From: a virus
Strand: one strand, 5' to 3'
DNA: 35,855 bases
IMG/VR virus record: IMGVR_UViG_3300022924_000015
Span: 1 to 35,855 of that record
Of this stretch, positions 22,364-33,672 are shown in pieces. The notes under the pieces are model-generated. The model was given only the letters and a program-made list of their open reading frames with translations, was not told where the DNA came from and searched no databases. Every line of letters begins with the position of its first letter. The first letter of the stretch is position 1. The position numbers were made by a program, and so were the translations under genes.

Positions 22364-22537
22364 ATGGAATTAATACGTACTATACCAAACCAAGAACTTG
22401 AGACTATCTTATCTCAGACAAGTGGTGGTGAGTACGTACAAGCAAGAACACTGGTTTCAGACGAGTTAGCTCGTCGAGCCAGTGTTCTTTTGTCTCTAGG
22501 CACAGCAGATATGCCCGCGTGGGACGGATTAGAATAG
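22364..22537 (+). CDS. Hypothetical protein, 57 aa, probable leaderless mRNA
   Basis: The ATG at 22364 begins MELIRTIPNQELETILSQ. An in-frame ATG at 22343 lies inside the promoter and is unlikely to be used. With a predicted transcription start at 22364 the mRNA would have no leader. The product is helical with an N-terminal PNQELE segment; no family is recognised. Confidence 0.65.
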   Translation: MELIRTIPNQELETILSQTSGGEYVQARTLVSDELARRASVLLSLGTADMPAWDGLE

Positions 22538-23238: not shown

Positions 23239-23430
23239 CTAAGACCAAAGCCTTTCACCAGTAAGAAAGAACCATACACCTGCTACAAGTCCAAACAACC
23301 ATGCTAGGCTTTGGATAAGTGCGCCAATTCCACCAACCACTGGGAAGATGCTAATGAGTGCTCCAATAAGTAATACCGCTAAGAACGTAATGATACCTAC
23401 TAGAATTGACAATAATATTCGCTTAATCAT
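23239..23430 (-). CDS. Small membrane protein, 63 aa
   Basis: Two hydrophobic stretches: about residues 3-30 (RILLSILVGIITFLAVLLIG) and 38-57 (LIQSLAWLFGLVAGVWFFL), with a short basic N-terminus. AAGGAGA lies upstream on the minus strand. It is the last gene of the leftward operon. Small double-pass proteins in early regions are sometimes superinfection-exclusion factors, but nothing specific shows this. Confidence 0.7.
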   Translation of the reverse strand: MIKRILLSILVGIITFLAVLLIGALISIFPVVGGIGALIQSLAWLFGLVAGVWFFLTGERLWS

Positions 23431-23468
23431 GTTACTTTGATCTCCTTAAGTTTATATACAGTATTATA

Positions 23469-23798
23469 CTACTTCTCTAAAAGTTCTGGGTTTTCGTAGA
23501 TGTTGCCGATCACTTCAATACCTTGATCAAACAATCTTAATGCCTGTATACCTGTATTATTATTTAGAAAAAATACCCCTTGATCAAAACAAACCGTTCC
23601 CGTGATTGATTGATTACGTTTAGGCAATGACCCTGTAAAACTACCATTAACAATATCGCCCTCATAAATCTCTACATCGTTCTTGTCTTTGATACCTGTG
23701 AACTGCATGACTTCGATTCCATCACGTTGAATACTTGATACGTTTTTGAACATCAGATTCTTTTCTGTGTCCCACGCTCTAAACTTAATTTCTCTCAC
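23469..23798 (-). CDS. YopX-family protein, 109 aa
   Basis: Starts MREIKFRAWDTEKNLMF and has MQFTGIKDKNDVEIYEGDIV and VIGNIYENPELL, the hallmark motifs of the YopX family, widespread in phages of Firmicutes and other monoderms. The molecular role of this family is not settled; members are early, non-structural proteins. It overlaps the upstream 93-aa gene by one base. Confidence 0.9.
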   Translation of the reverse strand: MREIKFRAWDTEKNLMFKNVSSIQRDGIEVMQFTGIKDKNDVEIYEGDIVNGSFTGSLPKRNQSITGTVCFDQGVFFLNNNTGIQALRLFDQGIEVIGNIYENPELLEK

Positions 23799-24079
23799 TA
23801 TAAACTCCTTAATTTCTTTTCAAATATTGATACAAAGGCTTTACCAGGTGTATTTGCCTTGCGCGCACACCAATCAGCTAGCTTGTATATTTCGAAGTCG
23901 CTAAACTTCGCTATCTTATAAGTATGACCTAGTTCGTAGTTGTCATCCTTTAAACGTTCACATAAATCACTGTGAAGCTTCCTAACTCGATTATCGATAC
24001 TCGATTGTTTAATTTCATTTGCTTCTTTAGTCTCTCGATACTCGATAATCGATTCGAGGGTTACTGCTTTTTGTAACAT
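23798..24079 (-). CDS. Leftward operon first gene, 93 aa, carrying internal TCGAT repeats
   Basis: A small basic helical protein of unknown family. The C-terminal part (LADWCARKANTPGKAFVSIF) faintly recalls the tail of replication-loader or initiator proteins, which is only a suggestion. Its coding sequence contains two clusters of 7-bp NTCGATN repeats, whose period is not a multiple of three. AGGA precedes the ATG on the minus strand. It is the first gene after the small-RNA array and could be a DNA-binding regulator or replication factor. Confidence 0.65.
   Translation of the reverse strand: MLQKAVTLESIIEYRETKEANEIKQSSIDNRVRKLHSDLCERLKDDNYELGHTYKIAKFSDFEIYKLADWCARKANTPGKAFVSIFEKKLRSL
23986..24006. 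repeat. 7-bp TCGAT repeats, cluster 1
   Basis: Three head-to-tail heptamers, CTCGATT ATCGATA CTCGATT. Each has a TCGAT core. They lie in the middle of the 93-aa leftward gene. Confidence 0.75.
24034..24054. repeat. 7-bp TCGAT repeats, cluster 2
   Basis: Three heptamers CTCGATA CTCGATA ATCGATT, starting 48 bases from the start of cluster 1, again inside the 93-aa gene. They could be iterons or an operator. Confidence 0.75.
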
Positions 24080-24154: not shown

Positions 24155-24202
24155 TATAAAAAGAAACTCCCCATTTCGGGGAGTTAGCTATGCACTTCGT
24201 CA
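24155..24202 (-). ncRNA. Candidate small RNA U5 (about 45 nt)
   Basis: Predicted from a promoter at 24209-24237 and an intrinsic terminator in which bases 24066+100 (24166)-24172 pair with 24179-24185 (stem AACTCCC/GGGAGTT), followed on the minus strand by TTCTTTTTAT. The 5' part (TGACGAAGTGCATAGC) is complementary to the neighbouring U4 RNA. No open reading frame fits inside. Confidence 0.5.
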
Positions 24203-24208
24203 CCTCTA

Positions 24209-24237
24209 AATATACAAGAGTGTGAGCATAAATACAA
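24209..24237 (-). promoter_or_regulatory. Promoter of small RNA U5
   Basis: On the minus strand TTGTAT and TATATT are separated by 17 bases. The expected start is near 24202. The -35 begins just after the T run of the U4 terminator. Confidence 0.6.
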
Positions 24238-24307
24238 TAGAAAAGTCCCCTAGTCTGGTGTTACTAGTAGCAGGACTACGCTATTTTGACGAAGGCATAA
24301 CCTGCTG
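24238..24307 (-). ncRNA. Candidate small RNA U4 (about 70 nt)
   Basis: Starts after a good promoter (24314-24342) and ends in a hairpin with stems 24244-24248/24273-24277 and 24250-24254/24063+200 (24263)-24267, then TTTTC on the minus strand. Its 5' AGCAGG can instead pair with CCTGCT, which overlaps the terminator base, so two folds compete. The middle (TATGCCTTCGTCA) is complementary to U5. Confidence 0.5.
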
Positions 24308-24313
24308 ATACTT

Positions 24314-24342
24314 ACTATACACCGCATATCGCTAACGTTCAA
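24314..24342 (-). promoter_or_regulatory. Promoter of small RNA U4
   Basis: TTGAAC and TATAGT with a 17-base spacer on the minus strand; predicted start near 24307. It lies immediately downstream of the U3 terminator. Confidence 0.6.
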
Positions 24343-24346
24343 GTAC

Positions 24347-24440
24347 CAAATAAAATAACCCCTTATATCATTAGGGGTTATAATACGATCACTTCCCGCA
24401 CATTAAACGGTGTGATGACAGGTACACGCTTCGCGGCGAT
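24347..24440 (-). ncRNA. Candidate small RNA U3 (about 90 nt)
   Basis: Ends in a perfect 9-bp hairpin (24355-24363 with 24373-24381, ATAACCCCT/AGGGGTTAT) followed on the minus strand by TTTTATTT. An inner fold, ATCAC with GTGAT enclosing CCG/CGG, is possible. The 5' end contains CGCCGCGAAGCG, which can form a small hairpin. Confidence 0.5.
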
Positions 24441-24446
24441 TATTCT

Positions 24447-24475
24447 ATTATACACCCTAATAAAAGAAGCACCTA
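24447..24475 (-). promoter_or_regulatory. Promoter of small RNA U3
   Basis: A perfect TATAAT on the minus strand (24447-24452), but the -35 position (TAGGTG) is weak and overlaps the terminator stem of U2. It is the weakest of the five promoters. Confidence 0.4.
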
Positions 24476-24568
24476 GTTCTATGTAGAGTGGTGCTTCTAA
24501 GTTTTTGTTATGAATAGGGAGGTATTAAGTCCGCGTAAAGTGCAAGAGGCGATTATGGTAGCCTTTAT
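24457..24568 (-). ncRNA. Candidate small RNA U2 (about 110 nt)
   Basis: Ends in a 9-bp hairpin (24465-24473 with 24490-24498, AGAAGCACC/GGTGCTTCT), which has T runs on both strands and so can also stop rightward transcription. A 5' hairpin AGGC/GCCT is possible, and the unpaired middle contains ATACCTCCCTATT, which is complementary to a Shine-Dalgarno sequence. Confidence 0.5.
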
Positions 24569-24574
24569 GTTTAG

Positions 24575-24602
24575 ATAATACCACAAGCGGAATAAAAGTA
24601 AA
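24575..24602 (-). promoter_or_regulatory. Promoter of small RNA U2 with conserved spacer
   Basis: TTTACT and TATTAT with a 16-base spacer on the minus strand. The spacer contains CCGCTTGTGG just before the -10, a close copy of the TTCGCTTATGG element of the rightward early promoters and an extended -10 (TGG). The -35 overlaps the U1 terminator T run. Confidence 0.6.
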
Positions 24603-24700
24603 GAAAAAGACCCCGAAGGATCTTGTCTTACTTGAGACCAGAAAGGCATTATCAATGAAAATATATAGGTGGTTATATATTAAGAAATGTTGCCTCAAGC
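24600..24700 (-). ncRNA. Candidate small RNA U1 (about 100 nt)
   Basis: The minus strand ends in AAGATCC-TTCG-GGGTCTT (7 pairs with a UUCG tetraloop, 24607-24624) followed by TTTCTTT, a textbook terminator. Inside, AATATATA pairs with TATATATT (24659-24680) and presents an ACCACC loop, while CTTGAG near the 5' end pairs with CTCAAG before the terminator. The fold is compact, with no reading frame of note. Confidence 0.55.
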
Positions 24701-24706
24701 ACTTTT

Positions 24707-24735
24707 ACTATACCAAATATAGGAATAATATTCAA
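24707..24735 (-). promoter_or_regulatory. Promoter of small RNA U1
   Basis: TTGAAT and TATAGT with a 17-base spacer ending TGG (extended -10) on the minus strand. It is divergent from the main early rightward promoter, which starts nine bases further right. Confidence 0.65.
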
Positions 24736-24743
24736 TAAGCTAG

Positions 24744-24772
24744 TTGTATCTTCGCTTATGGTATGGTATTAT
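24744..24772 (+). promoter_or_regulatory. Main early rightward promoter
   Basis: TTGTAT and TATTAT with a 17-base spacer holding TTCGCTTATGG and an extended -10. It drives the long run of early genes starting at 24800; start near 24779. Confidence 0.7.
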
Positions 24773-24799
24773 AGAGTTAGATTAACAAGAAAGGTTATG

Positions 24800-24886
24800 A
24801 TGAAAATAAAGGTTATATTTATTAATAGCGAGTTTCCATTAGGAACTACAGACGGTCAAACTTACACGATTGTACCGAGGCAATAA
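24800..24886 (+). CDS. Leader micro-protein, 28 aa
   Basis: First reading frame after the early promoter, with GAAAGG just upstream and a TAATG overlap to the next gene. An adjacent ATG at 24797 is in frame. The product is MKIKVIFINSEFPLGTTDGQ plus 8 residues. No function is recognised; its coupling suggests it is really translated. Confidence 0.55.
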   Translation: MKIKVIFINSEFPLGTTDGQTYTIVPRQ

Positions 24887-25038
24887 TGAGCAAGGTTCCT
24901 GTATGGGATATTTATATAAATTTAGGCGAGGCGACCTATAAATTACTAACAACAGATGAGCAGTATTTATACGATGCTTTTGATAATAAAGAACTTAAAG
25001 ATCCAGCTGGATATATAGAGGACGAATCTAAACAATGA
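24886..25038 (+). CDS. Hypothetical protein, 50 aa
   Basis: Acidic small protein coupled at both ends (TAATG and ATGA overlaps). Begins MSKVPVWDIYINLGEATYKL. No family is recognised; part of the early operon. Confidence 0.65.
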   Translation: MSKVPVWDIYINLGEATYKLLTTDEQYLYDAFDNKELKDPAGYIEDESKQ

Positions 25039-25160
25039 AAAGCTTTGAACAGATATTTAAAGAAATAGCCCAACCCCTCGTTGATGCTGGTCTATTCACC
25101 GAAGAAGAAGTATCAAAAGACTTAAACGAGATTTTCATAAAAGTAAAGGAATCGAAGTAA
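25035..25160 (+). CDS. Hypothetical protein, 41 aa
   Basis: Small helical protein (MKSFEQIFKEIAQPLVDAGL at the start) between ATGA and TAATG overlaps. No family is recognised. Confidence 0.65.
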   Translation: MKSFEQIFKEIAQPLVDAGLFTEEEVSKDLNEIFIKVKESK

Positions 25161-25363
25161 TGGAAGAGCAGACTCACGAGCAAAAACGTTTTGAGAGCGA
25201 CCGTCTGTCACTTATCCATAGAATTGTTTTTAACTCAGAATTAGGACGATGGGAATTAGCAGAAAAATACAGATCCCTCTACAAAGAAATTTATGGCGAT
25301 ATATCTGCTTACACACAACTACAAACACCACCAAGTATCATTAAGGAAGGTAAATCTAAATAA
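25160..25363 (+). CDS. Hypothetical protein, 67 aa
   Basis: Charged helical protein with a central SLIHRIVFNSELGRWELAEK segment, coupled to the recombination gene that follows by a TAATG overlap. It could be an accessory of the annealing protein, but this is only inferred from position. Confidence 0.7.
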   Translation: MEEQTHEQKRFESDRLSLIHRIVFNSELGRWELAEKYRSLYKEIYGDISAYTQLQTPPSIIKEGKSK

Positions 25364-26145
25364 TGAAAGAACTAAGACTACTCAAAGCCAACGAGATTGA
25401 TGTACGTATTGGTACGATCAATGAAAAGGGCGCAACGCTACTTCTTTACAAAGATGCCCGTGTAGATATGAATATCCTAGACGAGTCAGGTGTTAAGTGG
25501 CAACGTCGACATGATCTCATTAATGGAAATCTATTTTGTACCATTTCCATATGGGATGAAGATATTAAACAGTGGATTGAACGCCAAGATGTAGGAGTTG
25601 AAAGCAACACCGAAAAGGAAAAAGGACAAGCGTCCGACGCATTTAAACGTGCTGGGTTCAACTTTGGCATTGGTCGTGAGCTCTACACTGCTCCCTTTAC
25701 TTGGATCTCTGCAGACTCTTACAGTGCTTATAAGAACCCACAAACGGGTAAGTTAAGCACTTATGACAAGTTTGCTGTTGAAACTATTGGGTATGACGAG
25801 AATAAGGAAATTAACCAACTTGTTATTAAAAACATAAAGTCAGGTAAAGTAGTTTTTACGATGGGAAAGAAACCAGCACAAACAGGTGAAATCCGTGACC
25901 GTACAGCTGAGAGTAAAGAAGGTCCAAGTCCGATGGGTGAGCTAGAGACTGAAATTGGACGTGCTAAAAGGGCTGTATTTAACAGTCTTATAGACCTAGG
26001 GTATGAAGCCCCAGTGCAACAAAAGGCTTTTATTACACGCGTAATCAAAAAGAGCAGCATTGATAACTTAGACGAAGCTAATGAAGTTATGGATGCTATA
26101 GAGAATGAGCAAGGTATTAACGTTGATGGAAGTTACAATAAATAA
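25363..26145 (+). CDS. Rad52/Sak-like single-strand annealing protein, 260 aa
   Basis: The block at about residues 76-110 (DVGVESNTEKEKGQASDAF continuing KRAGFNFGIGRELYTAPF) is the signature of phage Rad52/22-type annealing proteins, with the helix-turn that binds single-stranded DNA. These rings anneal complementary strands in phage recombination and repair. The C-terminal part (about 175-260) is charged and probably mediates partner contacts. No exonuclease partner is found, though NinG is encoded 0.8 kb downstream, so a recombination module is present. Confidence 0.9.
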   Translation: MKELRLLKANEIDVRIGTINEKGATLLLYKDARVDMNILDESGVKWQRRHDLINGNLFCTISIWDEDIKQWIERQDVGVESNTEKEKGQASDAFKRAGFNFGIGRELYTAPFTWISADSYSAYKNPQTGKLSTYDKFAVETIGYDENKEINQLVIKNIKSGKVVFTMGKKPAQTGEIRDRTAESKEGPSPMGELETEIGRAKRAVFNSLIDLGYEAPVQQKAFITRVIKKSSIDNLDEANEVMDAIENEQGINVDGSYNK

Positions 26146-27665: not shown

Positions 27666-27694
27666 TTGACTCTTCGCTTATGGTATGCTATATT
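27666..27694 (+). promoter_or_regulatory. Early promoter before the lysozyme-like locus
   Basis: TTGACT and TATATT with a 17-base spacer containing TTCGCTTATGG. It is the best match to consensus of this family. The transcript would carry a leader of about 107 nt before ATG 27808, with a GAGA/TCTC hairpin. Confidence 0.75.
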
Positions 27695-32826: not shown

Positions 32827-32948
32827 GTAAGCTTAAACCAAACTTCATAGACAAATTGATATGTTATTTTAATGGTCATAAACCTTCAATATTACTAAGC
32901 ATGAATACTGGTAAACGACACTGTGTTAGGTGTGGAGGTGAATCATGA
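32823..32948 (+). CDS. Zinc-ribbon micro-protein, 41 aa
   Basis: C14, H19, C34 and C37 (RHCVRCGGES) are the likely zinc ligands, in the pattern of one-finger phage proteins. ATGA overlaps at both ends. AAGGAG lies just upstream. Confidence 0.65.
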   Translation: MSKLKPNFIDKLICYFNGHKPSILLSMNTGKRHCVRCGGES

Positions 32949-33235
32949 TAGACCACCAAACCTATAAAGACAGACGAGATGCGATATTAAATCAATTCAG
33001 ATCAAATACAAAACAAACCGAGACTCAACTCGGTTACTCAAAAGGGGGAATAGAAGAATATTTTGCTAGGCAGGAAGCAAACCTTGCAGAAGCCCAAAAA
33101 GCTATTGACTCTCTATTTATAGATGTAATAGGAGAAGACGAAAAATACGTAAAAATAGACCCAGTGAAAAACGTTGAAGTAAGTATTGTAAACCAGGTAT
33201 TTTCTGAACTAAGAACTATTGTGAAGGGGAAGTAA
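32945..33235 (+). CDS. Hypothetical protein with LF-VIGEDE motif, 96 aa
   Basis: Helical N-terminal half and the segment SLFIDVIGEDEKYVKID, similar to the 79-aa protein at 29177-29416. Stop overlaps the next ATG. No function is known. Confidence 0.7.
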   Translation: MIDHQTYKDRRDAILNQFRSNTKQTETQLGYSKGGIEEYFARQEANLAEAQKAIDSLFIDVIGEDEKYVKIDPVKNVEVSIVNQVFSELRTIVKGK

Positions 33236-33418: not shown

Positions 33419-33496
33419 ATGGCTATCTTCTGTGACTTTTGCCATACAGTGACCCACACTAATACAAGTTGTCCGCATCAGGCTATTGACTCCTAA
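33419..33496 (+). CDS. Cys/His micro-protein, 25 aa
   Basis: MAIFCDFCHTVTHTNTSCPH then five residues; C5, C8, C18 and H20 could form a single zinc finger. The gene is translated right after the previous stop. Its last codons contain the -35 of the next promoter. Confidence 0.5.
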   Translation: MAIFCDFCHTVTHTNTSCPHQAIDS

Positions 33497-33514
33497 GTTC
33501 GCTTATGGTATATT
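33486..33514 (+). promoter_or_regulatory. Early promoter, probable leaderless start
   Basis: TTGACT and TATATT with a 17-base spacer ending in TTCGCTTATGG. The expected start (33521) is the A of an ATG. It lies inside and just after the preceding micro-gene. Confidence 0.7.
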
Positions 33515-33520
33515 GAAGCT

Positions 33521-33637
33521 ATGAACAACCAAGAAAAAGCAGAAGCAACAATTGCAGTAGGACTAATCCTTTTCGGACTATTATTCATTGCAGCGTTTAT
33601 TGGAACTGTATACCTACTCGTAACAGCACAATTCTAA
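33521..33637 (+). CDS. Membrane micro-protein, 38 aa, probable leaderless mRNA
   Basis: MNNQEKAEATIAVGLILFGL then a second hydrophobic run to the C-terminus; one membrane segment at about 11-34. There is no Shine-Dalgarno sequence within the transcript, since the promoter -10 lies only six bases upstream. It is a single-gene unit with its own terminator. Function unknown. Confidence 0.7.
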   Translation: MNNQEKAEATIAVGLILFGLLFIAAFIGTVYLLVTAQF

Positions 33638-33672
33638 TTAAAGAAGCTCTTAAATAGGGCTTTCTTTTTTAT
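33638..33672 (+). terminator. Intrinsic terminator
   Basis: AGAA-GCTC pairs with GGGC-T-TTCT with one bulge, followed by TTTTTT. It ends the one-gene unit before the next promoter. Confidence 0.7.

Follow-up and report, generated by a model that had tools for sequence, protein, structure and literature searches.

The regulatory RNAs described from phages are, for the most part, single genes of model phages. Elsewhere, Gram-positive bacteria have C-rich (UCCC) small RNAs that bind Shine-Dalgarno (SD) sequences, and in the TisB/IstR locus, a type I toxin-antitoxin system, a divergent small RNA is the antitoxin.

That a phage should make antisense RNA is, of course, nothing new: sar, c4 and OOP are RNAs of this kind (PMC12197685). 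The sar RNA of P22 and the c4 RNA of P1 and P7 act on the antirepressor gene ant, while the OOP RNA of lambda is directed against cII (PMC12197685). PreS of lambda and VpdS of phage VP882 are short RNAs that act in trans, again by base pairing (PMC12197685).

The locus described here lies in the 35,855-base IMG/VR virus record IMGVR_UViG_3300022924_000015, the whole of which was analysed as the window (W, also used for the phage). It is a gene-free region that adjoins, and diverges from, a recombination (Erf) operon, and it appears to hold five small-RNA units in tandem (U1 to U5). The first of these, U1, resembles sar, c4 and OOP in being a small phage RNA that would pair with a phage mRNA (PMC12197685). 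Those RNAs, however, stand singly, whereas U1 is the first of five; sar and c4 target an antirepressor, whereas the target of U1 would be the first gene of the Erf operon; and, unlike in all three, the antisense segment of U1 is held in an open loop. PreS, VpdS and their kin are likewise short phage RNAs acting through base pairing, but they are Hfq-dependent, single and without a cassette, and their targets include host mRNAs and small RNAs. TisB/IstR-type loci resemble the W locus in that a tiny ORF has a leader complementary to a divergent small RNA, but the W peptide is not hydrophobic, several RNAs are present, and the first gene is not conserved across the phage group. The array RNAs also have the unpaired C-rich motifs, matching SD sequences, of the Gram-positive RNAs; the W units differ in being phage-borne and arrayed, with no homology detected.

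Searches of the databases gave the array no other identity. At the gathering threshold it matches no Rfam family, and lenient thresholds returned sub-threshold, chance-like matches only (Atu_C8, for example, was rejected at 26.3 bits against a gathering threshold of 50). Array DNA had no real match in phage and plasmid collections, a tRNA/tmRNA cluster was discarded after ARAGORN found no tRNA, and the open-licence literature searched held no tandem small-RNA cassette of this type. What the locus offers is a cassette of several RNAs that a group of environmental phages keeps at one position, and whose lead RNA has an antisense segment that tracks its target. This provides a concrete, testable regulator-target pair together with a new conserved micro-ORF, and a route, from sequence only, to RNA-based control circuits in uncultured phages.

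The phage

The W record has ends that overlap by 127 bp and so is complete: its genome of 35.7 kb is circular or else circularly permuted. W is a small, uncharacterised tailed phage. A podovirus-like virion is suggested by its portal, internal virion protein, Sf6-type small terminase, CHAP-like endolysin and holin. The W proteins searched, a set without ten early ones from the rightmost part, included none recognised as an integrase or a repressor. Host searches gave no match through the internal virion protein and distant relatives only through TerL. Dulem virus 31, the best capsid match, was set aside as kin; it is a different tailed phage, annotated with tail sheath and baseplate genes.

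Organization of the array

A preliminary description had read this gap, on the minus strand, as promoter, 45-110 nt and terminator five times over, with four sigma-70 promoters, a fifth consisting of TATAAT with a weak -35, a hairpin and T run closing every unit (one with a UUCG loop), and some -35 elements overlapping the terminator before them. Each of these features was found again where it had been placed (Table 1), and the mapped units are consistent with the lengths given. Between 24735 and 24158, five strong terminators follow one another, four with a good sigma-70 promoter ahead. The hairpins are worth about -10 to -13 kcal/mol each, with their T-runs on the minus strand. The overlaps are those of the P2 -35, within the T-tract of U1, and of the weak P3 -35, within the U2 hairpin.

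Table 1. Features of the W array and its surroundings, with predicted U1/leader pairing in related phages. Promoter ranks are from a sigma-70 matrix scored over 71,638 positions of the W genome; target ranks give the place of the early first gene, by U1 pairing, when every start region in that phage is compared.
Feature	Position	Strand	Remarks
Three leftward genes	23239-24079	-	Left side of array
U5 small RNA (predicted)	24158-24203	-	Terminator 24185-24165
P5 promoter	24209-24237	-	TTGTAT-17-TATATT; rank 30
U4 small RNA (predicted)	24238-24308	-	Terminator 24277-24244
P4 promoter	24314-24342	-	TTGAAC-17-TATAGT; rank 26
U3 small RNA (predicted)	24350-24441	-	Terminator 24381-24355
P3 -10 element	24447-24452	-	TATAAT, poor -35; rank 472, weak
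U2 small RNA (predicted)	24458-24569	-	Terminator hairpin 24498-24465
P2 promoter	24575-24602	-	TTTACT-16-TATTAT; rank 13
U1 small RNA (predicted)	24600-24701	-	Terminator hairpin 24624-24607, UUCG loop
U1 antisense segment	24640-24661	-	UUUUCAUUG (24661-24653) and GCCUUUCU (24647-24640); predicted to pair with early leader
P1 promoter	24707-24735	-	TTGAAT-17-TATAGT, TG before -10; rank 5
Divergent early promoter	24744-24772	+	TTGTAT-17-TATTAT with TTCGCTTATGG element; rank 14; 8 bp from P1
Target SD and start region	24788-24806	+	AGAAAGGU and UGAUGAAAA, early leader of W
Micro-ORF, 29 codons	24797-24886	+	MMKIKVIFINSEFPLGTTDGQTYTIVPRQ; TAA overlaps next ATG (24886), TAATG
Downstream early genes	24886-26145	+	Include Erf/Rad52-like annealing protein, 25363-26145
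W pairing			GCCUUUCU and UUUUCAUUG with AGAAAGGU and UGAUGAAAA; target rank 4/72 (2/72 with second ATG)
G001 pairing			AGUCCCUUC with GAAGGGAUU; target rank 1/70
G002 pairing			CUUUUCUACU with AGUAGAAAAG; target rank 3/61
G003 pairing			CCUUUCAA and AUUCGUUGAUA with UUGAAAGG and UAUCAAUGAGU; target rank 1/46
L115 pairing			UAUAUCUAGUCUUU with AAGGAUUAGAUAUG; target rank 3/33
L112 pairing			GCCCUUUC and CAUUUCGUA with GAAAGGGU and UACGAAAUG; target rank 1/14
G005 pairing			GCGUUUACUCU with GGAGUAAACGC; target rank 2/36
L040 pairing			GCGUUUACUCU with GGAGUAAACGC; target rank 2/19
L051 pairing			UGCGUUUCC with GGAAACGCA; target rank 2/7

Hairpins and promoter-like hexamers arise, of course, by chance. 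Here, the array has four scored units against a mean of 0.22 (maximum 2) in dinucleotide shuffles, and five terminators against a mean of 0.36; none of 300 shuffles reaches four units, and none reaches five terminators. Scoring of both strands, a check that the preliminary description had proposed, placed units on the minus strand only; the plus strand of the region has neither a promoter-terminator unit nor a terminator by the same scoring. Genome-wide, four of the 47 promoter-like sites that score at least 8 fall within this 0.8 kb, on the array strand. Five strong terminators spaced by no more than 180 nt occur only in W among 1.72 Mb of related loci, both strands included.

Arrays in related phages

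Relatives were found through the Erf-like protein or TerL. In three of these (G001 = L003/L118, G002 = L004/L119, G003 = L034/L121), the corresponding position is a gap of 0.5-1.2 kb with few genes. Leftward promoters and terminators stand in it, diverging from the Erf operon and differing in sequence from those of W. P1 has near-identical counterparts in G003 (TTGAAT-17-TATAGT) and in L115. The arrays of these three phages rest partly on reading of the sequence; automatic scoring alone gave two units each in G001 and G003, while G002, with hairpins that are longer or weaker, gave none. A systematic scan with inspection added similar arrays in L115, divergent from its own Erf gene, and in L112, divergent from its own first early gene. 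Clear units lie between the Erf operon and the small terminase in G005 (= L042/L122) and L040, where the U1-like RNA is upstream of the operon and not divergent; related RNAs were seen in these two phages and in L051. Scanning viral contigs with the U1-loop motif recovered only G001 and G003, plus chance matches in coding sequence.

Thus, the shuffle statistics and the presence of arrays at this position in relatives make an organised cassette of independent small RNAs a well-supported prediction. The cassette of the preliminary description stands, and it is not confined to W: arrays recur across the group. The comparison of the gap between phages, which that description had also proposed, showed as well that the U1 antisense changes with its target.

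Pairing of U1 with the early leader

In W, U1 is predicted to fold into a 10-bp outer stem enclosing an inner hairpin with an ACCACC loop and an open antisense segment, followed by the UUCG terminator. The first RNA is built alike in W, G001, G002, G003 and L112. Its outer stem, of about 8-10 bp, encloses an inner part and, before the 3' arm, an open segment; a short linker then leads to the terminator. The outer stem has a different sequence in each phage, and in four phages the fold is lower in energy than mononucleotide shuffles by 3.1-4.5 standard deviations. Most of the antisense segment is unpaired in the predicted fold; it is 8-14 nt long and complementary to the SD/start region of whichever gene comes first in the adjacent early operon. 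In L051 (1902-2180), GGAAACGCA is common to the leftward and rightward leaders, and one RNA could pair with both.

Every SD is purine-rich, so the right control is to exchange U1 and leader between phages. With six phages, whose U1s were defined before the complementarity was noticed, the pairing of each U1 with its own leader is the best of 720 assignments. It is 1 of 40,320 with eight phages and 2 of 362,880 with nine; the RNAs of G005, L040 and L051 were recognised by their complementarity, so that the six-phage test is the only one free of selection. Within phages, the early first gene ranks between 1 and 4 in all nine (Fisher p 6e-5). A looser duplex program, which allows long gaps, left the cross-phage result unchanged and gave unremarkable within-phage ranks. 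The W pairing is among the weaker, with 12 of 300 shuffled U1s pairing as well. In view of these shuffles and of the looser program's ranks, the case for U1 rests on the group and not on W alone.

Here, then, the preliminary guess of translation control, one of several offered, gains support for U1 in the form of an antisense that changes in step with its target in nine phages. The guesses of sponges and defence decoys gain no such support for U2 to U5. Like RNAs of the sar/c4 kind, U1 has a promoter and terminator of its own (both predicted) and is, across the nine phages, complementary to a phage mRNA at its ribosome-binding region; its predicted target in W is not an antirepressor gene (ant) but the micro-ORF that heads the Erf operon. 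The reading we prefer, at a probability of about three quarters, is that the region is a cassette of five small RNAs, independently promoted and intrinsically terminated, in which the lead member, U1, acts on the early operon as an antisense translational repressor. The outer stem of U1 would hold open a single-stranded segment complementary to the SD and start codon of the micro-ORF, and pairing would block 30S binding at this first early gene. Repression might then spread along the operon, since the micro-ORF stop overlaps the next start; by such translational coupling, the genes behind the micro-ORF would be lowered too. The array may further have a role in timing or in lysis/dormancy control. 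Taken as a whole, it resembles a regulatory switch built from RNA more than a chance set of hairpins.

U2 to U5 and anti-SD motifs

The other four units are presumably further small RNAs, some with anti-SD motifs, that would be directed at translation starts. U2 (fold z = -2.9) has an unpaired ACCUCC at 24523-24518. Over the sense strands of eight arrays, CCUCC occurs nine times (in seven of the arrays) against 1.8 in shuffles, and CCUCC, CACCU and ACCUC together 27 times against 7.3, with none of 500 shuffles reaching either total, for a motif that was picked after the arrays had been read. This suggests that the arrays carry SD-binding RNAs in general. A CUACA loop motif in U2 was not enriched. 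One candidate site for U2, at 32945-33235, was good by one score (4 of 200 shuffles) and was rejected on a stricter one.

The small RNAs might, of course, act mainly on the host, on mRNA starts, as sponges or in defence, with the match of U1 to the early leader being secondary. No specific target of U2 to U5 within W survives controls, and anti-SD motifs could hit many host genes. This is nevertheless an unlikely account, as U1 complementarity follows each phage's own early leader. A bolder form of the preferred reading would have an all-RNA module do the work of a protein repressor across this group of phages, with each unit silencing one start through its anti-SD, U1 setting the early operon, and RNA dosage controlling development or a dormant state. 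This bolder form is a tentative proposal, and a doubtful one.

Leftward genes and serial terminators

Terminators in series might also be attenuators within a single leftward leader, read through by antitermination into the genes at 24079-23239. These genes have no strong promoter of their own (best score 5.3), and competing stems are possible in U4. Set against this are the four strong promoters, one ahead of each of four terminators. In G005, moreover, two successive units have near-identical TTGACA promoters, each directly after the preceding terminator, an arrangement hard to explain except by independent RNA genes. Attenuation is thus quite improbable here.

Within U4, a stable AGCAGG/CCUGCU stem can compete with the terminator stem, as in an attenuator. 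At the start of U5 (24158-24210, minus strand), an SD-like AGAGGUGA is followed by GUG CAU AGC UAA, a three-codon ORF.

The early promoter and the micro-ORF

The divergent plus-strand promoter, the micro-ORF behind it and the U1 antisense to its leader were all absent from the preliminary description. The micro-ORF of W is unannotated, and falls under the ORF size limit of the initial target scan. It is kept in four relatives (G001, G002, G003 and L115; tblastn E down to 5e-6), where, as in W, it has 28-30 codons with an LGTxNGxDYTIYP-like core in common; the phage collection gave no match.

A 29-codon ORF whose leader is complementary, over a short stretch, to a divergent small RNA recalls, of course, a type I toxin-antitoxin pair, in which the micro-ORF would be the toxin and U1 its antisense antitoxin. 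The peptides, however, are polar and lack a hydrophobic membrane stretch. Further, in L112, G005, L040 and L051 the first gene codes for an unrelated protein (74-191 aa) while the antisense logic is maintained; this logic, and not the protein, is what stays constant, and a toxin here is very improbable. A replication or packaging origin with hairpins, or a like structure that is not transcribed, would suit a gene-free region beside a recombination operon, but is scarcely credible given T-runs on one strand, promoters phased with the hairpins and a U1 antisense that changes in step with its target.

The TTCGCTTATGG element of the early promoter is common to promoters ending at 27694 and 33514. 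Further, TTCGCTTATGGTAT lies in the spacer/extended -10 of the rightward promoters at 24744-24772, 27666-27694 and 33486-33514 (plus strand), and is likely a common regulator site of the three. A similar element lies ahead of the early operons in G001 and G003.

Two other places in W may be mentioned. The strongest promoter predicted in the genome is followed by a small membrane-protein-like ORF (33521-33637, plus strand; MNNQEKAEATIAVGLILFGLLFIAAFIGTVYLLVTAQF) and then by a terminator at 33640-33667. At 22445-22488, inside a small ORF adjoining the lysis genes, is a very strong hairpin that has the form of a terminator whichever strand is read (-22 and -27 kcal/mol).
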